Positions 4,501 to 30,019 of a DNA stretch of 31,321 bases are shown here, in pieces. The translations under genes were made by a program, and so were the position numbers. How positions within the stretch are numbered: position 1 is the first letter of the stretch; each line of letters starts with the position of its first letter. The stretch is from a virus. The stretch lies in IMG/VR virus record IMGVR_UViG_3300023110_000123, positions 1 through 31,321 of that record. The stretch is one strand, 5' to 3'. The notes under the pieces are model-generated. The model was not told where the DNA came from. It worked only from the letters and a program-made list of their open reading frames with translations, and ran no database searches.

Positions 4501-6983
4501 ACACTAATACGACTGTCGTCCACACGAGTAAGAACAACACTTTGATTACTTGTTAAAGGAGGAATAGCTGTACCACTCACATTAGTATAAACAGCATTAC
4601 TGTCTCCTGTAATCTTGTGGTTAGAAATATACACTGTGTTAAACTTCTCGTTTGTTTTTGTATAAGACATTGTAAATTCTTGTGGAACTTGTGCGATGTC
4701 GTCTGTATTTGGGCTTGACTGTGTTGTAAGTCGCAATACATCTTTGTTAACAATACTCGCAACCGCCGTAAACTGTTGAGTCATATTAGTCACAGTACCA
4801 TTACTACTTGCAAATGAGAAACGCTCTCCAGCATTATAGTTTGTAGTATTTGCATTAATCACAACGTTTTGTGTAGATGTAATACCATGGTCCTGTAAAA
4901 ATAATGTATTTCTATCACTTGTTAATGGATTAGCAAATACATAGAATATTTCACTACCTGTGCCATAGTTAACATTATTGTCGTTATAGTCAATAGTAAA
5001 TCTACCAGTACCATTTAGTGTTGTTGGTACTGAAATAACTTGATTGTATTTTACACTCAGAGTACCATAGCGTCCATTGTTTCTTTGGTTAGTTAAGTAA
5101 CTAAATGCGTCAGCTGAGTTTGTATAGCTTCCACTTGTTCTACCTTGGAAAGCGACAACCGCTGCAGGCTGTGATCCGCCTAAACCAAATTGAGAGTCTG
5201 CTAAGTCACCGCCACTGAATTTTTTCTCATCTTCTGTATAGCTACCAGCCGGGGTTGTATTAATAAAGTCGATTTGAAATCTATATCTGTCAGTACCGTA
5301 AACAAACGTACCAACACTACTACGTGCTTGTGCTGTGACTGGTAAAAATGTACGACCATTGCTTACAAACAATGAACTACTAACATCCAAGTTATTAAAA
5401 ATAGGAGTGCCGCCACTTGTGTTTGTTGTAGCTAGGATCGACGTGCTTTGGTTACCAGGTGAATACAAACTCTGACTTTGACCAGCAATAGTAAATGTAA
5501 CATATTCGCCTGAACTGTTAACATCACCACCTAGTCTTATTTCTTCAATTGTTACATTAGTTGGGTTACCAGTTAGTGCTGTTGTTACGTCAACGTTAAA
5601 GTTGATAGCATTTGTACTACCTGAACCATATGCACTAGAGCTACCAGTCACTGTTGCTTCATTTGCTTTGTAAAATTCTGTTTCTCTAGTGGTACCGCTT
5701 GCTTCTTCGACTTTATACACCAGTCCTAAACGTGCTTGTCCATATGTATTGTTTAGTGTAGTTAAGTTTGCAGCACCACTAAGTGCATCTGTACTATGAA
5801 GTTTAATAGTATTAGCGTCAATAACTTCAACATACCAAACGCTTCCGTCAGCAAGTCCACCATCAGACGCACCATGATATGGTGTATTAAACAACAGTGT
5901 GTATCCGTCTCTAAGTTGGTGTGTGTTCCAGGTAATTTCGTCAGTGGTAGCATTCCATTCTGCAGGATCTAAGTATTGAGTATAAGTAGATTCCCAGTCA
6001 TATGTTGTAATAGGTCTGTCTTTGTATGAACCTCTACCAGTTGATGTGGTTTGGTCTATTGTATCGCTAACATTAAAAGTTGCAGTTGTATCAACATAAG
6101 GCCTGCCATCTGGTGCAGTAAGTGTACTATCTGCAATATCCAAAATACGTGGACCAACCGTGTTACGCAAATAAACTTTTGTTCCTTCGGAAAATCCGTG
6201 TGTTTCATTTGTTGTCACTGTAATAGTACTTGGACTATTGCCGTCTGTCTGTGCACCGTCTGCTGTACTAACTGGAAGTGTTGAACCTTCAAAAAACTTA
6301 CCAGGAACAATAGTTGTATAACTACCTGACAGGTCACCGCTAAATGTTGCAATAACATCAAGTTCAAAGAAGAACGTCAATGTATCAGGAACACTAGTAA
6401 CAATAAAGAAGCCTTCAGCTTGATATTGGCTCAAGCCTTGAACACTAATCGGGTCACCAATGCTTAGTCCGTGTATTAGGCTAGTTGTAACTTTAACGTT
6501 TTTACTTCCACTAATGGCTTCAACACTTACAATACCATCAACTGGAGTGTCGCCACTGTTACTATAGATAGTAGGAATGTTATTAACTGTTTGGGTTGTT
6601 TCCCATTTCGTACTTTGCAAACCATATTCAAAGTCAGTATCGATTAAGTTTTCTGGATTGCTAACTCTTAGTTTACCAACAGGATCCAATATATCTTCTG
6701 CAGGCGTTATTTCTTGATAGTCATAGTCTACAAATATTTGTAAAATATCTGTATCATTCATTGTTGTAGTATCATATACTAGTGCAAATTCAGTTCTATC
6801 AGTTGCTACATCATAATATTTTCCTGCAAATCCCAGTGCTGGATCTGCAAAGTTATAAATGATTGTATTAGCTGTAATGTTAGTAATAATTAAAAACTTT
6901 TCAGCATTGATATTACCATCTACATATACAACTTGCTCGCTTGCATCAAATGTGTACTGTCCTACTAAGAGTTTCTTGGCCAT
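1527..6983 (-). CDS. Large virion structural protein (1818 residues), cyanophage-type
   Basis: Motifs typical of the very large structural proteins of T4-like marine phages are present: SNPENLIDTDFEYGLQSTKW (about residues 107-126), IARQTRKYFRYQSGKGLQ (about 1220) and IDYSWYGAGKIRFGF (about 1460) followed by YFRSGNLPARYE. Between them are several copies of a beta segment of the type (H)-x-L-xx-GD-x-V-x-(V/I)-x-G with a following Y-x-G-x-F-x-V-T, for example HGLSIGDPISVQG, HNLVTGEKVTYSD and HNLQVGDVVTIAG. The last 350 residues include VDLTRPLPLISVRLAPSVD, then a helix-rich stretch ending FTVNGKISWSESQA. It probably belongs to the tail tip or baseplate; no enzyme motif is visible. The ribosome site AGGA is rather far (about 13 bases) from ATG. 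Confidence 0.85.
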   Translation of the reverse strand: MAKKLLVGQYTFDASEQVVYVDGNINAEKFLIITNITANTIIYNFADPALGFAGKYYDVATDRTEFALVYDTTTMNDTDILQIFVDYDYQEITPAEDILDPVGKLRVSNPENLIDTDFEYGLQSTKWETTQTVNNIPTIYSNSGDTPVDGIVSVEAISGSKNVKVTTSLIHGLSIGDPISVQGLSQYQAEGFFIVTSVPDTLTFFFELDVIATFSGDLSGSYTTIVPGKFFEGSTLPVSTADGAQTDGNSPSTITVTTNETHGFSEGTKVYLRNTVGPRILDIADSTLTAPDGRPYVDTTATFNVSDTIDQTTSTGRGSYKDRPITTYDWESTYTQYLDPAEWNATTDEITWNTHQLRDGYTLLFNTPYHGASDGGLADGSVWYVEVIDANTIKLHSTDALSGAANLTTLNNTYGQARLGLVYKVEEASGTTRETEFYKANEATVTGSSSAYGSGSTNAINFNVDVTTALTGNPTNVTIEEIRLGGDVNSSGEYVTFTIAGQSQSLYSPGNQSTSILATTNTSGGTPIFNNLDVSSSLFVSNGRTFLPVTAQARSSVGTFVYGTDRYRFQIDFINTTPAGSYTEDEKKFSGGDLADSQFGLGGSQPAAVVAFQGRTSGSYTNSADAFSYLTNQRNNGRYGTLSVKYNQVISVPTTLNGTGRFTIDYNDNNVNYGTGSEIFYVFANPLTSDRNTLFLQDHGITSTQNVVINANTTNYNAGERFSFASSNGTVTNMTQQFTAVASIVNKDVLRLTTQSSPNTDDIAQVPQEFTMSYTKTNEKFNTVYISNHKITGDSNAVYTNVSGTAIPPLTSNQSVVLTRVDDSRISVSDGTAGATGTGQTITQQNNNTTQTFFLDLETAFGFIPGTAQLTKLEFRGDFGANSEYIDVEFDDGDSYRIGQSDDIGDSASYATSTTLTFKELSNLLVTDGTTGKRGINLLVTPRSTVNYGPGGGPWWGLRITYSGSSTGLVLTGPGSGAHQFEVANLVGAYDGVFAMTNIPQTNQFVMSSDFQIPIRSYSFTSTDVNNANDTITFASAHNLVTGEKVTYSDGGNTSILPSGVGDTFVIVISPTVIKLATSATDALANLAINITGQSGTHTIQAANVIKNIQGSGTVDTTLNGKNIVGSGTNFLTNFKKFDKIYINNGSYVEELTVDTVTTEENMTIFENASSNISGTDYYYATQLSLRPDGFSLHKPFDGGVDITAGTSPNSRIARQTRKYFRYQSGKGLQTSFAINFNPPRIVRDLIKASGTTATINTQEQHNLQVGDVVTIAGAEVATGTNYYNGSFPVATIPNPFQFTYTMSGTPTDVKAAGFPTYVRAGWTDSFVRAGMFDDQNGFFYEYDGQALYAVRRSSTTQIAGFVSVTRNSQVVNGINTSFTTQLQAGDRVVIRGQTYLINEVSSDIRMVVQPAYRGVDAVQVKATKTIDTRAAQSTWNLDKADGTGFTGFILDTTKIQMAYIDYSWYGAGKIRFGFKDRVGHVRYFHEFRHNNVLDESYFRSGNLPARYEIANGPTATTAPTLFHFGTSIIMDGKFDDDKAYQFTGESKPFAFTNGVSSTFTSNNVSTFEQITLNGTRVYVYTIPVAANDATGVAIGSQIKETAGTDLPAGTYVTQVKVDGGNSKIYTSYPATSADPTGGGIYSVIAGSTSFTLGETSAVDLTRPLPLISVRLAPSVDSGLTGALGEREIINRMQLRLRQASITANADIEFFLLQNALPSVIAYQNAQSPSLSEIIKHSAGDTLLNGTAIYSAKASAGSTVVDLADLLEIGNSILGGDGIFPAGPDLLTLAVQPQSTTGVTGSTPFTVNGKISWSESQA

Positions 6984-24474: not shown

Positions 24475-27162
24475 TTAAACACGTTTTCTTCTGCGTATTC
24501 TTCTGCGTGGGTATGCTACACCTGACCTCGGACGACCTCTATGCTGTTTTGGCCATCTAGGTCTATTTTCATTTGTAGAGCTTGGCATCCATAATATTAA
24601 GTTTGCAGAACCTTCTAAACTATTAGCAAAGTCAAATGTTCCTGGAGGATCATCATATATTTGATCCGGTTTGCTGATAACTCGTAACATTTCTCTAGCT
24701 TGTCTTTGTGTCATGTCTGGATATTCTTCAAGCATACATGCAAGTATACCACAAACCTGTGGGCCACTCATACTAGTACCACTTACTTTAGCATAGTAGT
24801 TACCGCCGCCTCGATCTGCTTTAGATCTACTTGATAAAGATGGCATCGAACTTTGAATATAATGTCCTGCTGCATATATGTCAACATTTTCTCCAAAATT
24901 ACTAAAATAAACTCTTTGCTCTTTATCATTCAAATGTGTATTATCTAATGCGCCAACACAAATAACAGCACTGTCTGTACCATTACCTGCACCCGCAGGT
25001 GATTGTGGTCTATGATAGTAAGAATTACTTCCGCCAGTTGTTGTTATATAGTTATTATAATATGGGTGATCTGAGCTATACATTGGCACACGACCGTTGC
25101 CTGCACTAGCTACTACAATAACGCCGTCTGCTATTGCATCAACAATATCTGCATCAGTAGAAAGGTTAGTAGCAGTGTGTCTACCACCAGTGTTATAACC
25201 AAAACTTTGTAATTCAGCATTTGTAAATGTAGTTCCTCCGCCTGAAATAGTTTTGGCTCCATTTTGTTCCCAATTTATTTCATATTCATTAGGTGAATTT
25301 TCGAAAAATGTTAATTCCCAACGCATATTTGGCGATTCAGGAGTATTAATATAATAACGATCATGACCTTCCCATACAACCCTATATTCTCTATTAGGAG
25401 TAATTCCTGAAACTCCGTGCCAGATACTATAACCTCGTCTATCTCTGGCGCCTATCATAATTTTAGGTAACAGCGGGTTGGATGCAGACACGTTATATGT
25501 ACTAGAACCACTACCAAATGTAACATAGCTGTTAGTTCCAACATGTATTGTATTGTATGTAACACCTAAATACTGAATGTCAAATGGTAAATTTAATGTC
25601 CAATATCCGTCATCATTATTACCTGATGTTGGTGAACTGTCTGCGGTTAATCCTGTTATGTTAATTGCTGTGTGAGGAAGAGTTATTACTGAACCAGATG
25701 CGTTAGGATCTGCTGCTGGATTATCTTCTGTAAATTCTTCAAACTCATCGTTTCCTAAATCTGCATTAAAATCGCTAAAGAACTGTCCTCGCTCACCTGT
25801 TGTAACAGTCCATGCAACATCAAATGTAAATTCATCACCGTCTGCAGGATATGTTTCTACAATATATCTAATTGTAACGTTACCTGTTGGACCAAAGAAA
25901 CTAAATCCAAAACCACCAGTTAGTTCAAAATCAATCTCTGGACCTCTAACTGTTGTAGCAATACTTGCACCGTTGTTAACAATACGTCTAATAATCATAT
26001 AACTATCTTCACTGTTACAACTTGCAACAATTCTACTATTCTGTCTAACATCACATGGTGTTAGTACTGTAATCTCATAGTTGTCTGCTGGATCAGTTTG
26101 CGTAAAGCTAAATGTTTGGTTTACAATTTTATCCCATTCGTCTGGCCATGCTACCATTCTATCAGTAACACTGGTTGCAGTACCTGTAGTTGTAAATCTA
26201 TTTTTACTATTTTCTGGATCACCTACTCTAGCTACAACTTGGCTTGTAGTGCTGTATGCACCGTAAAATCCATTATACTCAGTATCTTGAGTACCACCAG
26301 GTGTATGTGTTGTACCATCAAATGTAATAGATGCAATGCTAGATGCTGAAGTAGCACTACGACTATAACCCCAACTGTTGTTTACGATAGTTGGATTTTT
26401 ATATCCAGTATCAGGATTAATCGGCTTATTATTATGAAATTCTCTTATGTAGTCAAATGCTAGAGAAGGAGAAATACTGTTGTTTGCATCATTGCCGCTA
26501 AAATTTAATGCAAAGAAATAAATGTTTGCATCCTTTGCCCAACCTTCTTCACGTCCTGCAACTGTTCCTGCACAGTGAATATTATGAAAGTTACTACTGT
26601 CACCACGCTGGGCATATGTTCTTCCAACGTGTGAACTATCACCAACTGCAGAGGCATGTTGCCACCAGTTGTAATCTACAACTCTGCTAACACCATTACC
26701 ATCTAAAAATTCTCTATGATTTGGTTCCCATGCTTGGTCATCTAAGATTACAACGTCAACATTTCTTCCTGTGTATTGATAGTTAATTGTACCATTGATA
26801 GTATCAGATGCGCTATCAAAATTGTTATTGTTTTCCCCAGCAATGTGTCTCCATAATCCCCATTGGTTATGGTTTGCATTTAAACTTGAACTTCTTGAAA
26901 ACTGTCCTGTTTGTGTAAACATTCTTTCCGGTGGACTATCATCTACTATTTCTACAAATTGTACTCTTGCATCGTTTACAACTTCTAAGGCTTCTTGTGG
27001 TGTTAACATATAATGTGTAACTCGACTTTTAGGTTTTCTCAATTCAACATCTACTGCTCTGTCTGGAATAGTAACAGAGCCGCCGTCTGTTTCCATATCG
27101 TTATAAAAGTCGTCTAAGTCTTCGTAGTTGTGTAATACAACAGCATATTTGTGTAAGTTCAT
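24475..27162 (-). CDS. Subtilisin-like (S8) serine protease with large insertion, probable virion protein
   Basis: This 895-residue protein has the complete subtilase signature: Asp in VDVVILDDQAWEP near residue 141, His in HNIHCAGTVAG near 196, the oxyanion Asn in GVIVVASAGNG near 690, and the nucleophile Ser in KVSGTSMSGPQV near 798. Residues 1-75 could be an I9-like propeptide. In subtilisin the strand matching TIVNNSWGYS (about 260) and the oxyanion Asn are some 30 residues apart; here about 400 residues of beta-rich sequence intervene (DGYWTLNLPFDIQYLG, RVVWEGHDRYY), probably one or more inserted beta-sandwich domains. The C-terminus is strongly basic (PRRRIRRRKRV). No signal peptide is visible. 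Position among fibre genes suggests a virion-borne or assembly protease; targets are unknown. Confidence 0.9.
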   Translation of the reverse strand: MNLHKYAVVLHNYEDLDDFYNDMETDGGSVTIPDRAVDVELRKPKSRVTHYMLTPQEALEVVNDARVQFVEIVDDSPPERMFTQTGQFSRSSSLNANHNQWGLWRHIAGENNNNFDSASDTINGTINYQYTGRNVDVVILDDQAWEPNHREFLDGNGVSRVVDYNWWQHASAVGDSSHVGRTYAQRGDSSNFHNIHCAGTVAGREEGWAKDANIYFFALNFSGNDANNSISPSLAFDYIREFHNNKPINPDTGYKNPTIVNNSWGYSRSATSASSIASITFDGTTHTPGGTQDTEYNGFYGAYSTTSQVVARVGDPENSKNRFTTTGTATSVTDRMVAWPDEWDKIVNQTFSFTQTDPADNYEITVLTPCDVRQNSRIVASCNSEDSYMIIRRIVNNGASIATTVRGPEIDFELTGGFGFSFFGPTGNVTIRYIVETYPADGDEFTFDVAWTVTTGERGQFFSDFNADLGNDEFEEFTEDNPAADPNASGSVITLPHTAINITGLTADSSPTSGNNDDGYWTLNLPFDIQYLGVTYNTIHVGTNSYVTFGSGSSTYNVSASNPLLPKIMIGARDRRGYSIWHGVSGITPNREYRVVWEGHDRYYINTPESPNMRWELTFFENSPNEYEINWEQNGAKTISGGGTTFTNAELQSFGYNTGGRHTATNLSTDADIVDAIADGVIVVASAGNGRVPMYSSDHPYYNNYITTTGGSNSYYHRPQSPAGAGNGTDSAVICVGALDNTHLNDKEQRVYFSNFGENVDIYAAGHYIQSSMPSLSSRSKADRGGGNYYAKVSGTSMSGPQVCGILACMLEEYPDMTQRQAREMLRVISKPDQIYDDPPGTFDFANSLEGSANLILWMPSSTNENRPRWPKQHRGRPRSGVAYPRRRIRRRKRV

Positions 27163-27163
27163 T

Positions 27164-27709
27164 TTATGTTTCCAATGGTAAAATTAATAGTGTTGTTGTT
27201 ATTGTATTTGTGCTGCCTGATTTGTTAGTTACTGCCAAATAAATTGTATCTGTTACAGGATTTTCATCGTTCCAGCCAACACTTGACGGTGTAAATTTAA
27301 CAGTAGTTGCACCAGTTGTAATAATTTCAGCGTGTACGCCAGCATCTGGATCTGGGTCAACACCTTCAGAACGTCCGCTGTCGTTTGTTCTTGCTGCAGC
27401 ACTGCTATAAACTCTAACCCATGCTGCTTGGTCTACTTCAATTGATAACACACTGTATGCTTTTGCTGCACTTGTGATATCAACATCGTCCGATGCTGCA
27501 TTTGCAATACTAGCAGTTGTACCGCTTACAGTTGTACGTGGGGCTGTGCCTCCACCACCACCGCCAGAACCTGTAACTTCGTTACCGCCCGCAGTGGCGC
27601 CATCTCCTACATACACTTTCTTAGTGTCTGTTGTGTAGATTAATTCGCCTTCAGCAGGAGTAATTCCTGATCTGTCTGCGTCTACACCTCTTCTTAATAA
27701 TAAAGCCAT
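27164..27709 (-). CDS. Virion protein with tropism-determinant-like N-terminus
   Basis: I start this 181-residue protein at MALLLRRGVDADRSG because a ribosome site (TTTGGAGA) precedes that ATG; the longer open frame to 27757 would overlap the preceding gene and its late promoter. Residues 1-40 (LLRRGVDADRS, ITPAEGELIYTTDTKKVYVG, DGATAGG) match the pattern of the Mtd N-terminal domain found at the base of many phage tail fibres. A run of six Gly near residue 50 links to a beta-rich C-terminal domain ending TITTTLLILPLET. It probably attaches to or forms part of a fibre. There is no C-type lectin variable domain, so it is not a tropism determinant in the diversity-generating sense. The protease gene starts one base after its stop. 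Confidence 0.8.
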   Translation of the reverse strand: MALLLRRGVDADRSGITPAEGELIYTTDTKKVYVGDGATAGGNEVTGSGGGGGGTAPRTTVSGTTASIANAASDDVDITSAAKAYSVLSIEVDQAAWVRVYSSAAARTNDSGRSEGVDPDPDAGVHAEIITTGATTVKFTPSSVGWNDENPVTDTIYLAVTNKSGSTNTITTTLLILPLET

Positions 27710-27734
27710 TTTTTTCTCCAAAGAGTTATTAATA

Positions 27735-27742
27735 TATTTATA
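27735..27742 (-). promoter_or_regulatory. T4-type late promoter TATAAATA (exact consensus)
   Basis: The minus strand carries the exact T4 late octamer, 25 bases before the ATG at 27709. The TAA of the octamer is at the same time the stop codon of the preceding gene. Confidence 0.82.
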
Positions 27743-28343
27743 TTGATCCCATATCAATCGTTAGTGCATTAGGTGCAGCATATGATCCCATGTCAATATC
27801 TGATCCGAGAGATAATAGATATCCGGTTGCACTTGTGTGGTAGTTTGTATTATAATAACCAAAGTCAAAAGAACTAATACCAGAAGTGCTGCCAGTACCA
27901 TTTAAATTAACCCATTCTCTTGTAGCAAGAGTTCCGTCTTCGTCTGGTAAAATTACATTTCTGTCTGCAGTTGCAGCAAGTGCTTGTAATTTAATTTCGT
28001 AATCATCTGGTACAGTACCTTCAAAAATTAACTTAGTTTGTTGTTTAATCCAAATGTTTCCTGTAGGATATAATGCAATGTCAGCACCGCTATGTATGTC
28101 TAGATCATCACCACTAACACTGTTAACTTTACTTGTAAAAACTTCACGCCATGATTTTGTAGATGTACCTATGTCGTAAGTAGCATTAACATCTGGAACA
28201 ATATTGCTAGTAATGTCTGCTGTTAAACTAATACTATCAGTGTCAGCATCACCTAGTATCACATTACCATTTGCTGTAACATTTCCTGAGAGTGTAATAT
28301 TACCAGTAACATCCAAATCTTGTTTAAATTTTGTCGAACTCAT
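27738..28343 (-). CDS. Small fibre-like virion protein
   Basis: This 201-residue protein starts with short beta-repeat sequence (DLDVTGNITLSGNVTANGNV) typical of phage fibre shafts. It then carries the module NIVPDVNATYDIGTSTKSW at about residues 48-66, which recurs in the larger fibre proteins of this window. A stretch near residues 105-140 (FEGTVPDDYEIKLQALAA, then VILPDEDGTLAT) resembles a common fibre segment. There is no signal peptide or membrane segment. It is probably a minor virion or fibre protein; no enzymatic motif is visible. The ribosome site is GGAG seven bases before ATG. Its TAA stop lies inside the late promoter of the next gene. Confidence 0.8.
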   Translation of the reverse strand: MSSTKFKQDLDVTGNITLSGNVTANGNVILGDADTDSISLTADITSNIVPDVNATYDIGTSTKSWREVFTSKVNSVSGDDLDIHSGADIALYPTGNIWIKQQTKLIFEGTVPDDYEIKLQALAATADRNVILPDEDGTLATREWVNLNGTGSTSGISSFDFGYYNTNYHTSATGYLLSLGSDIDMGSYAAPNALTIDMGSI

Positions 28344-28364
28344 ATCTTATCTCCGTACTAAAAG

Positions 28365-28372
28365 TATTTATC
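28365..28372 (-). promoter_or_regulatory. T4-type late promoter GATAAATA
   Basis: The minus strand reads GATAAATA, one base from the T4 late consensus TATAAATA, 21 bases before the start codon at 28343. It lies just after the terminator of the noncoding RNA and would start the first fibre-block transcript. In T4 such octamers are recognised by gp55 with the gp33/gp45 co-activators; those genes are not in the window. Confidence 0.75.
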
Positions 28373-28382
28373 GCATAGAGAT

Positions 28383-28407
28383 AAAAAAAGCTAGCACAAG
28401 GCTAGCT
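28383..28407 (-). terminator. Intrinsic terminator of the noncoding RNA
   Basis: A 7-bp stem AGCTAGC/GCTAGCT (28401-28407 with 28389-28395) closes a five-base loop and is followed on the minus strand by a run of T (complement of 28383-28389). On the opposite strand the run after the stem is weak, so the terminator works mainly on minus-strand transcripts. It ends the noncoding RNA just upstream of the late promoter at 28365-28372. Confidence 0.9.
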
Positions 28408-28439
28408 CTTTTGTAGTCATCAATTTGAAAGGAAAAGCA

Positions 28440-28546
28440 ATTATAGTGTTTTAGTATACACACTCACTTGATAGCCTCTCGGCCCTTGTCCTATGCACAG
28501 GAAAGCAGGTGCATCTACTCTGGCGTGTATACTAAAACACTATAAT
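28440..28546 (-). repeat. 22-bp perfect inverted repeat enclosing two small hairpins
   Basis: Bases 28440-28461 and 28525-28546 are exact reverse complements (22 bp), separated by 63 bases. In the minus-strand RNA they would form a long uninterrupted helix. Inside it are a 6-bp hairpin (ATGCAC with GTGCAT, 28493-28498 and 28509-28514, 10-base loop) and GCC-GAGA-GGC (28474-28483), so the domain looks like a three-way junction. The arms are AT-rich while the enclosed part is not. It occupies the 3' third of the noncoding RNA, before the terminator. Confidence 0.9.
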
Positions 28547-28761
28547 ATATGATAGGAGGGACTCGAGAATACCCTCAACCTAGGTTTACAGTCTCGCTGT
28601 CTAATACCCAGGAGCCTAGCATTGGATAGTTACTTCCAAAATACGCATCTTCATGTCTCCATGCTCATGCGCTGCTACTACAGCTACTAGCCAAGTTCGG
28701 AGCCTGTCTACTCCTCTTCCTTGCACTATCTAACTCGGACCGTCGTCTCTGTTATGTTTAT

Positions 28762-28790
28762 AATATAGTATATACAGAAACAAATGTCAA
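28762..28790 (-). promoter_or_regulatory. Sigma70-like promoter of the noncoding RNA
   Basis: On the minus strand a perfect -35 box TTGACA (28785-28790) is separated by 17 bases from TATATT (28762-28767), one mismatch from TATAAT. Transcription would begin near 28755. This is the only good sigma70-type promoter I found in an intergenic space here; the structural genes downstream use the T4 late octamer instead. It therefore suggests expression by unmodified host polymerase, probably earlier in infection than the capsid genes. Confidence 0.8.
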
Positions 28791-28811
28791 CACTTTTTTT
28801 AAAAAAAGTCA

Positions 28812-28842
28812 CAAAAAAAGGCACCGAAGTGCCTTTTTTCTT
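28812..28842 (-). terminator. Intrinsic terminator after gp23, probably bidirectional
   Basis: On the minus strand a 5-bp GGCAC/GTGCC stem closes a TTCG tetraloop (C-UUCG-G, an exceptionally stable type) at 28820-28833 and is followed by seven T residues. The stem is flanked by an A-run on the other side (28834-28839 on the opposite strand), so it can also extend by A-U pairs and end transcription on the plus strand. It lies 25 bases after the gp23 stop and closes the head gene unit before the next promoter. Confidence 0.93.
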
Positions 28843-28858
28843 ATTGTGTGAAAACCTA

Positions 28859-30019
28859 TTACTGGAATGATAGGTTGTTTGTTGTAACAGCAATTTTACT
28901 TAGGTAATCTGCTGCGTTACCTAGCGATGATGCTTGGTTGCTTAGTTCAACATAACCATAACGTGTCATGAAGCTAACAACTGGCTCGAATGTCGCTGGG
29001 TCTAGTACTGTACCGCTTGACATTAGTGGGATGTATGGGCAATAGAACGCTGCTGCGTCTGTTTCTGTTGAACCCTTGTAACCTACTAGGATGTCGTCGT
29101 TTGCTGCGTACTGGTTTACATAAACACGCATAGTACCGTTTAGTGTACCTACGAATTTTGTGTTTGTTGGTGCCTCGAAAGGACCTTCAGTTGTACGTGC
29201 AAATGCGCTTGTTGTTGCTGACTGTAGAACAGTTAGAACGTCTGGGCTTACAACTGCCCAGTTACCTGCGCCACGGCGTGTACGTGCTGCAATTGTGTTT
29301 GCATTTTTGTTGATTAGAACTGCTAGTGCTGCATGTTCGTCACCAACGAAAGTAGCTGTACCACTTACACCTGCTTGGTTGTATGTGTCAGCTGCTGCGC
29401 CTGCTAGACTTGTTAGAGATGCAATGATCTCTTGGTCGATTTCAGCAGTAATTTCTTGTGCAAGTGCTTGCATAATTTCTGCTTCGACGTCTAGGCCGTG
29501 CATTGAGTTAGCGTCTTGCGCTGCTTCAAATGTCCAACGTGCTGATAGCTTACGTGTTTTAGCTTCAACAGTTTGCTTTAGGACTTGAATACTCATTTTC
29601 TTACCTGCTTCACCTTCTAGTGTTGCAGTTGCATCCGCTCTGTTTGTTGTTGCGTTACCTGAGTAACCTGTTGCAATTGCGAATGGGCTTAGTGCTTCAT
29701 CACCTGCAGTTGCGCTGTCAAATGTTTCAGCGTAACGTACACGTAGTGTGTGAATCTGACCAACTGGGCCTGTCATAGGCTGTACACCAACGATCTCGTT
29801 AGCAATAACAGTTGGCATTACACGGCGAATAACTGGAAGAATCACTTTGTTAAGTGTTGCAACGTTGCCTGCTTGAGTTGCACCAGCACTTGCACTTTCT
29901 GACAAGTAACGCTTAGTGTTTTCAAGTGTTGTTTCCATCACTTTTTTCTTTGTTCCAGTTAGACCGTCTGTTAGGGCTGTTTTAGTTTCTGCCCAATTTT
30001 CCATTAGGTTGTCTGCCAT
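28859..30019 (-). CDS. gp23: gp23-like major capsid protein
   Basis: This 386-residue protein is the T4-type major head protein (HK97 fold in the family). The recognisable parts are the N-terminal MADNLMENWAE segment, a prepro region of about 41 residues, the capsid-like stretch NKVILPVIRRVMPTVIANEI followed by VGVQPMTGPVGQ at about residues 57-88, and the end MTRYGYVELSNQASSLGNAA. A gp21-type processing site is visible as YLSE at residues 38-41 followed by Ser-Ala-Ser-Ala; T4 gp23 is cut after a Glu at residue 65. The protein is clearly shorter than T4 gp23 (521 residues), so insertions of the T4 version seem absent. The ribosome site is AAGGAGA. A strong terminator follows the stop. Confidence 0.95.
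   Translation of the reverse strand: MADNLMENWAETKTALTDGLTGTKKKVMETTLENTKRYLSESASAGATQAGNVATLNKVILPVIRRVMPTVIANEIVGVQPMTGPVGQIHTLRVRYAETFDSATAGDEALSPFAIATGYSGNATTNRADATATLEGEAGKKMSIQVLKQTVEAKTRKLSARWTFEAAQDANSMHGLDVEAEIMQALAQEITAEIDQEIIASLTSLAGAAADTYNQAGVSGTATFVGDEHAALAVLINKNANTIAARTRRGAGNWAVVSPDVLTVLQSATTSAFARTTEGPFEAPTNTKFVGTLNGTMRVYVNQYAANDDILVGYKGSTETDAAAFYCPYIPLMSSGTVLDPATFEPVVSFMTRYGYVELSNQASSLGNAADYLSKIAVTTNNLSFQ

Follow-up and report, generated by a model that had tools for sequence, protein, structure and literature searches.

The window, that is the whole stretch of DNA analysed here, comprises the 31,321 bases of the IMG/VR virus record IMGVR_UViG_3300023110_000123 and carries gp23, the gene of the T4-type major capsid protein, in its last part (Table 1). 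Between gp23 and the next gene on the minus strand lies an intergenic gap of 515 bases (28344–28858). An earlier note described this gap as lacking a credible ORF and as enclosed by two terminators, and both statements were borne out: ORFs of at least 25 aa overlapping 28350–28800 reach at most 70 aa, the 70-aa ORF being located mostly inside the next gene and the remaining ones comprising 25–55 aa. Read along the minus strand, the gap is composed of an upstream terminator, a promoter, a 204-nt RNA core, a long hairpin, a terminator with seven T and finally the motif GATAAATA, which resembles the T4 late-promoter consensus.

The 201-aa gene behind the RNA has no Pfam match. It is followed by a gene (27164–27757) encoding a Major tropism determinant N-terminal domain (PF18454, E 4.8e-10), and an 895-aa protein with a subtilase (Peptidase_S8) domain is encoded among the structural genes at 24475–27162. 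The nearest isolate relatives of the gp23 are found in jumbo phages (PA5oct, 70.3%; Vibrio phage 2.275.O, 70.2%), raising the possibility that this record is one piece of a large phage genome. Six jumbo-phage gp23 relatives, searched for the RNA with stricter filters, gave no match. In three contigs (L090, L091 and L093), the gp23 is 91–94% identical to that of the window and the next gene follows directly; a manA-type RNA, as described below, was not found in them, indicating that the RNA is optional.

The near-consensus sigma70 promoter named in the earlier note was recovered and predicts a transcription start at about 28755. A region-wide scan yields three promoter-like sites compared with 3.9 expected by chance, so that the promoter of the window taken by itself is weak proof; the proof lies in the homologues, where a promoter is conserved at this position. 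For the terminator at the downstream end of the RNA, the first tool scored the plus strand only, and a laxer scan detects it on the minus strand.

Table 1. Features of the gap between gp23 and the following gene, with the flanking genes.
Feature	Position	Strand	Basis or detail
gp23, major capsid protein	28859-30019	minus	Pfam PF07068, 346.8 bits
Terminator between gp23 and RNA promoter	28840-28813	minus	plus strand scored too
Sigma70-type promoter	28790-28762	minus	TTGACA 28790-28785, 17-base spacer, TATATT 28767-28762; 11/12 matches
manA-type RNA core, 204 nt	28753-28550	minus	RF01745 match and covariation
Core helices	P1: 28730-28726 with 28555-28551	minus	P0; closing P1; P2/P2b; P3 around P4, P5 and P6; then P7 and P8
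Probable loop-loop contact	L4 GUAGU 28681-28677 with L6 AGUAACUA 28634-28627	minus	permutation test
Module X	28546-28440	minus	27-bp closing stem around hairpins A, B and C; fold z -6.84
Hairpins of module X	inside module X		A, AGUAG-AUGCAC-CUGCU; B, UCCU-GUGCAU-AGGA; C, with GNRA loop
36-nt core of module X	28520-28485	minus	80 fetched copies compared
Intrinsic terminator	28410-28383	minus	hairpin and seven T; downstream end of RNA
GATAAATA, T4-late-promoter-like motif of next gene	28372-28365	minus	motif search
Gene after RNA, 201 aa	27738-28343	minus	weak tail-fibre-like PHROG matches

Judged by homology, the 204-nt core is a divergent manA RNA that stays below the Rfam cut-off. The earlier note could not match the RNA to tRNA, tmRNA, RNase P, 6S, group I/II introns or a riboswitch core; for the 5′ two thirds of its interval, a match does exist. 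The Rfam search it recommended returned no match in the whole window at gathering scores; however, a full-length match to RF01745 (manA) spans 28753–28546 and scores 34.7 bits (E 1.9e-7) against a gathering score of 55.2. This match appears only in small-region searches run with an E-value threshold. Run over the genome collection, the Rfam manA model missed the copy of the window. The weak matches to mir-927, STnc320, AbsR28 and other families were judged to be chance or terminator hairpins. No tRNA or tmRNA was detected in the window by ARAGORN or Rfam, and GOLLD and ROOL are not among the Rfam matches at E ≤ 5 in 28000–29100.

The whole 192-position manA model aligns in order to the RNA of the window. 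Both share a multi-branched fold closed by P1 and a P8 hairpin of the form GGGUAU...UCCC, and both are carried by T4-like marine phages, the manA copy of P-RSM4 likewise residing just 3′ of gp23. In contrast, the P2 segment reads GUGCAAGGAA...AACUUG in the window and GUGaCUGAAUAA in manA, and the window adds a separate terminator and the module X.

Homologues of the gap region adjoin gp23 in other marine viral contigs. The loci collected are a sample, consisting of the best 80 of 599 relatives in one search and of only the matches listed in another. A covariance model built from ten window-type sequences only (R1) recovers the copy in the window. It also matches 32 of the 97 loci retrieved with gp23 or its neighbour as query, several of which stop short of the site, 90 of 100 loci (E ≤ 1) retrieved with a core pattern, and 36 of 100 retrieved with a second pattern. 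R1 also finds locus L120 (E 4.5e-11), which reaches 92.9 bits with the Rfam manA model, and it misses the manA of S-CREM1. Homology between the RNA of the window and manA thus holds in both directions, from the Rfam model to the window and from R1 to L120. A second model (R2) was built from 95 matches, with S-CREM1, Mosig, P-SSM2, P-SSM4, P-RSM4 and S-SSM7 outside the training set. Since its training includes a few canonical-type copies (L120, L142, L178 and others), R1 is the cleaner test of homology. R2 detects manA in S-CREM1 (E 4.3e-21), in Mosig (E 1.5e-44) and in P-SSM2, P-SSM4, P-RSM4 and S-SSM7 (E 8.5e-15 to 1.1e-20); its match in HTVC008M is weaker (E 4.1e-7). These last five phages belong to a set of 11 records, of which the remaining six gave no manA. 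Cyanophages and pelagiphages are both among the carriers found with these models. The Rfam manA scores of relatives form a continuum from 28.5 to 92.9 bits (28.5, 39.0, 43.8, 42.1, 44.2, 53.3, 61.9, 63.5, 92.9, 41.3, 44.6 and 51.0). Relatives of the window above the gathering score include L237 (61.9 bits) and Mosig (64.0 bits), and the Rfam model exceeds its cut-off in six of 13 hand-chosen isolates.

With blastn, the RNA of the window gave only 48-base matches (E 0.01) to two Staphylococcus phages among the phage records, which were judged to be chance. The copies of L049, L241, L165 and L120 had no match in these records, that of S-CREM1 found only itself, and that of L222 found Mosig. A stricter pattern run over 84,980 bacterial and archaeal species hit a single Woesearchaeota MAG and was rejected, as the match lacks model support. 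In three phage records, small hypothetical CDS are annotated across the manA RNA, namely at 164884–165057 in P-SSM4 (L364), 151441–151572 in S-SSM7 (L367) and 4993–5163 in HTVC008M (L341); these are probably not genes.

The core fold comprises 59 pairs in 13 helices. Together with the long hairpin and its three sub-hairpins, this bears out the earlier count of at least nine helices. Minimum free energy folding gives a z-score of −5.67 for the minus strand vs −3.86 for the plus strand, and folding of the single sequence misses some helices, P1 among them, that the comparative fold contains. The P5 loop (28659–28656) is a GNRA loop. The minus-strand GAGA motifs at 28659–28656 and 28480–28477 cap stems as GNRA tetraloops, in agreement with the earlier note. 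In total, the minus strand has four copies of GAGA and the plus strand one.

The decisive evidence for a real structure is covariation, and the comparison of homologues suggested in the earlier note supplies it. An alignment fitted to the covariance model (A3) contains 95 distinct matches (E ≤ 0.001) from 96 hand-chosen sources, with duplicates and most truncated matches excluded. Here, 92.5% of 5335 cells are paired vs 37–47% after sliding and 62.7% after shuffling, the covariation score is 0.740 vs 0.07–0.12 after sliding, and double-sided changes occur at 55 of 58 pairs. In a ten-sequence MAFFT alignment, which is not structure-fitted, 91.6% of 582 cells are paired vs 35–42% slid and 78.6% shuffled, and 34 of 59 pairs carry double-sided changes; P2b is paired in only 52% of cells, and P1 and P2 are invariant. 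As the structure was drawn by hand from the window with that of Rfam as a guide, the paired percentages are biased toward the structure, and the double-sided changes less so. The conserved secondary structure with covariation expected of a manA RNA is accordingly present. Judged by these substitution patterns, the core structure is under selection.

Loops L4 and L6 probably form a loop-loop contact. Own loops form 3.86 contiguous pairs vs 3.59 ± 0.09 for swapped loops, a value equalled in 0.1% of 2000 permutations over 37 distinct loop pairs, with statistics that ignore kinship. In Weinberg 2010, a pseudoknot is marked in manA with a question mark.

The surroundings of the copies are similar in many loci, although the counts below stem from related copies and are not independent events. 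A promoter with at least 10 of 12 matches is located within 70 nt upstream of 71 of 95 copies vs 1.55% of random positions; the remaining 24 have no match of at least 10. Intrinsic terminators occur within 200 nt in 57 of the 93 copies with enough sequence vs 6.25% in the control, leaving 36 with none found. The late-promoter motif [TG]ATAAATA lies no more than 250 nt behind the core in 64 of 111 copies (the 95 of A3 and 16 later matches), compared with 3.4% of random stretches; among the 52 copies that follow gp23, 40 have it. These 52 have gp23 upstream on the same strand, and 24 of them, one being the window, had been retrieved with gp23 or its neighbour as query. By eye, a promoter of the TTGACA type ends just ahead of the RNA in P-SSM2, P-SSM4, P-RSM4, S-SSM7, HTVC008M and Mosig; in P-RSM4, manA is immediately 3′ of gp23, an arrangement shared with the window. 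Another group is situated ahead of gp32 and reads toward it (three checked), with the late-promoter motif 4–9 nt behind the RNA in most and 34 nt behind it in L269. A tRNA lies within 12 nt of manA in nine of 111 copies, among them that of S-CREM1, positioned between tRNA-Leu and tRNA-Asn. In S-SSM7, tRNA-Gly begins 1 nt behind the RNA. From this arrangement, many manA copies look like autonomous genes. The claim that the interval encodes a phage noncoding RNA, made by a host-type polymerase in a unit distinct from the late ones, gains support from the conserved promoter, the frequent terminator, the covariation and the late motif before the next gene.

Further structured RNAs occur in some of these loci. 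A freshwater-2 RNA (RF02980) was found close behind the RNA at L032:5919–6000 (72.2 bits) and at L281:3722–3789 (41.6 bits, below the cut-off of 49.9); unlike the elements of the manA unit, it is located beyond the terminator and ahead of the next gene. By eye, similar leaders precede a gene beginning MGRP, after the late-promoter motif, in several gp23 loci. The tRNA cluster of S-CREM1 that contains manA also holds wcaG and abiF RNAs (L330:1246–1343 and 2032–2068), and given this location, the re-reading proposed here for manA may also suit wcaG, which is likewise typed as cis-regulatory.

The 3′ third of the interval is a separate module, X. The earlier note had described 28755–28383 as one free-standing RNA; the unit indeed has its own promoter and terminator, and its 3′ third has to be set apart as an element common to phage tmRNAs and tRNA spacers. 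X has no convincing Rfam match (best mir-927, E 0.35), and searches of the phage collection that included X left it unmatched. Its hexanucleotide loops A and B are exact reverse complements; they may pair with each other inside a molecule or across two, or form the strands of a hairpin stem instead. In the viral collection, 64 stretches contain the core motif, or 71 if the stems are relaxed; the relaxed-loop pattern added one locus and the relaxed-stem pattern seven, so that pairing between the loops is argued mainly from their exact complementarity. Among 80 copies of the X core, 45 equal that of the window, 34 have one base changed and one has two, a near-invariance that arises partly by construction, as the fetch patterns fix 18–24 of the 36 bases. 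Copies with 2–11 substitutions were not found on either strand of the 3.2 Mb of DNA collected before the last locus search. The 80 occurrences, among which a contig can recur with another locus id, represent 27 distinct stem-plus-core sequences and 35 distinct 150-nt contexts. A closing stem of 18–28 bp, with two mismatches allowed, is present in all 27 distinct sequences, whereas random positions average 9.7 and 0.13% of them reach 18. Evidence for the inner stems is mixed: of the six changes seen in the X core, two disrupt pairing in hairpin A or B. The stems are favoured by a compensatory change in L427 and by a substitution in loop A that retains a G-U pair (L419); mismatches in L421-type copies (A-C, hairpin A) and in L424-type copies (A-A, hairpin B) speak against them.

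The first 73 copies of X fall into three settings: 37 reside in permuted tmRNA, 29 behind a window-type manA core and seven before tRNA-Pro in tRNA arrays. With R2, manA was detected directly ahead of X in all seven tRNA-Pro loci and in three of four similar later ones, the fourth (L421) ending there. Among the later loci, L427 carries X in a tmRNA, and L424 and L426 carry it between tRNA-Pro and tRNA-Asn with no manA match. In total, X occurs in tmRNA in 38 of 80 cases, behind manA in 40 (L421 by likeness only) and between tRNAs in two; the majority of the manA RNAs found have no X. In the tmRNA loci, which are permuted and of the alphaproteobacterial type, X lies within the excised segment, which separates the CCA end of the acceptor piece from the 5′ terminus of the coding piece. 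Some phage copies of the two-piece tmRNA (RF01849/RF04321) share X with the window in this way; the RNA of the window, however, has no tRNA-like or tag-coding part, and RF04321 itself does not include X, which aligns there as an insert. Six loci (L395, L406, L408, L421, L423 and L425) combine X behind manA with a permuted tmRNA where no X was detected, and other contigs carry X in the tmRNA. A conserved stretch, reading CCGAACTGTAAC.AGAAAGGA in most, is located 3′ of X in L126, L229, L388 and L409, and a stretch of the same type follows a manA core that lacks X in L285; it is possibly a third module.

Taken together, the interval is probably a self-contained RNA gene, predicted to yield an early, trans-acting and stable phage RNA that shares a module with tmRNA. 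This RNA would be transcribed by host RNA polymerase at an early stage of infection, uncoupled from the late capsid genes, and the manA core would fold and act in trans as a stable phage RNA. Its most likely target would be the translation apparatus, a link read solely from gene neighbourhood, because manA copies lie flush with phage tRNAs and X is otherwise found beside parts of phage tmRNA and tRNA. As the position of X is constant, the module on its 18–28 bp stem 3′ of the mature RNA would most likely serve the release or protection of the 3′ end, as a site for a nuclease or protein or as a self-processing element. The broader proposal remains tentative, namely that manA as such is a stable RNA working with the translation machinery and not a riboswitch, and that X is a new near-invariant element 3′ of manA, of the split-tmRNA acceptor piece and of tRNA, which could be self-cleaving, recruit a processing factor or be released as a small RNA.

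The established label is a different one. Rfam types manA as Cis-reg, and Weinberg 2010 lists it among riboswitch candidates. The 5′-UTR position is repeated in PMC9964418 and PMC7657543, and the S-CREM1 paper lists manA as cis-regulatory, though the S-CREM1 record places it between tRNAs. In the literature on manA RNA and phage permuted tmRNA that was covered in part, with most subscription journals outside its scope, we found neither manA as a free-standing or tRNA-array RNA nor a description of module X. According to the cis-acting explanation, the core is the aptamer of a riboswitch or leader and the terminator behind it the expression platform. The order promoter, RNA, terminator, gene would suit an attenuating riboswitch as well, and the ManA-type and Hsp20 genes named in 2010 are located downstream of some copies. 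Moreover, a minority of copies, namely those of L228, L234, L261, L272 and L287 and tRNA-array copies such as L238, have no terminator found and stop just ahead of a start codon with its likely ribosome-binding site; these could be 5′ leaders and may act in cis. However, the first larger downstream genes (10 examined) encode gp32, Hsp20, rubrerythrin, redoxin, an RNase H-type exonuclease and a mannose-isomerase type protein, and are thus functionally unrelated. The late-promoter motif stands behind the RNA in more than half of the copies, some copies are flush with tRNAs, and in the window the core does not occupy a 5′-UTR position, as module X, the terminator and the late-promoter motif intervene before the next gene. 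In an attenuating riboswitch, the terminator arm is expected to pair with its own core; across 56 copies no such pairing signal was detected (−8.43 vs −8.74 ± 0.20 kcal/mol for permuted cores, with 93% of permutations at least as strong), other mechanisms of coupling being possible. A riboswitch is therefore rather unlikely here.

A structural or scaffold RNA, assembling into multimers by pairing of X loops A and B between molecules, would draw on the exact complementarity of these loops and on the one-base spacing of their hairpins, which may be too close for a kissing interaction within one molecule. The phage RNAs GOLLD and ROOL offer a precedent: in PMC12286853, these phage-borne RNAs of unknown role, often near tRNA islands, are described as forming cages with the help of kissing loops, with GOLLD members often exceeding 800 nt. 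They differ from the RNA of the window in sequence and fold, and the window matches neither family; they are the closest functional analogy and not relatives. With most manA copies found to lack X as well, we regard a scaffold as unlikely. Presence or absence among close relatives, combined with a host-type promoter, would also fit an optional early counter-defence gene whose RNA acts as a decoy or antagonist of host defence or of a host RNA-binding protein; the conservation of the RNA in tRNA arrays of distant cyanophages and the lack of any target found make this quite improbable.

For the manA family, an autonomous stable RNA would shift the questions to be asked. Filed since 2010 as a cis-regulator and riboswitch candidate, manA would be approached by a search for a ligand, whereas the many copies that look autonomous or lie in tRNA arrays call for different experiments. 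The autonomy of the RNA can be checked in the cultured phages P-SSM2, P-RSM4, S-SSM7 and Mosig. Module X links manA with the tmRNA and tRNA spacers of phages, provides a 36-nt element of low variation that can be probed, and raises the question of how phages mature their own stable RNAs.
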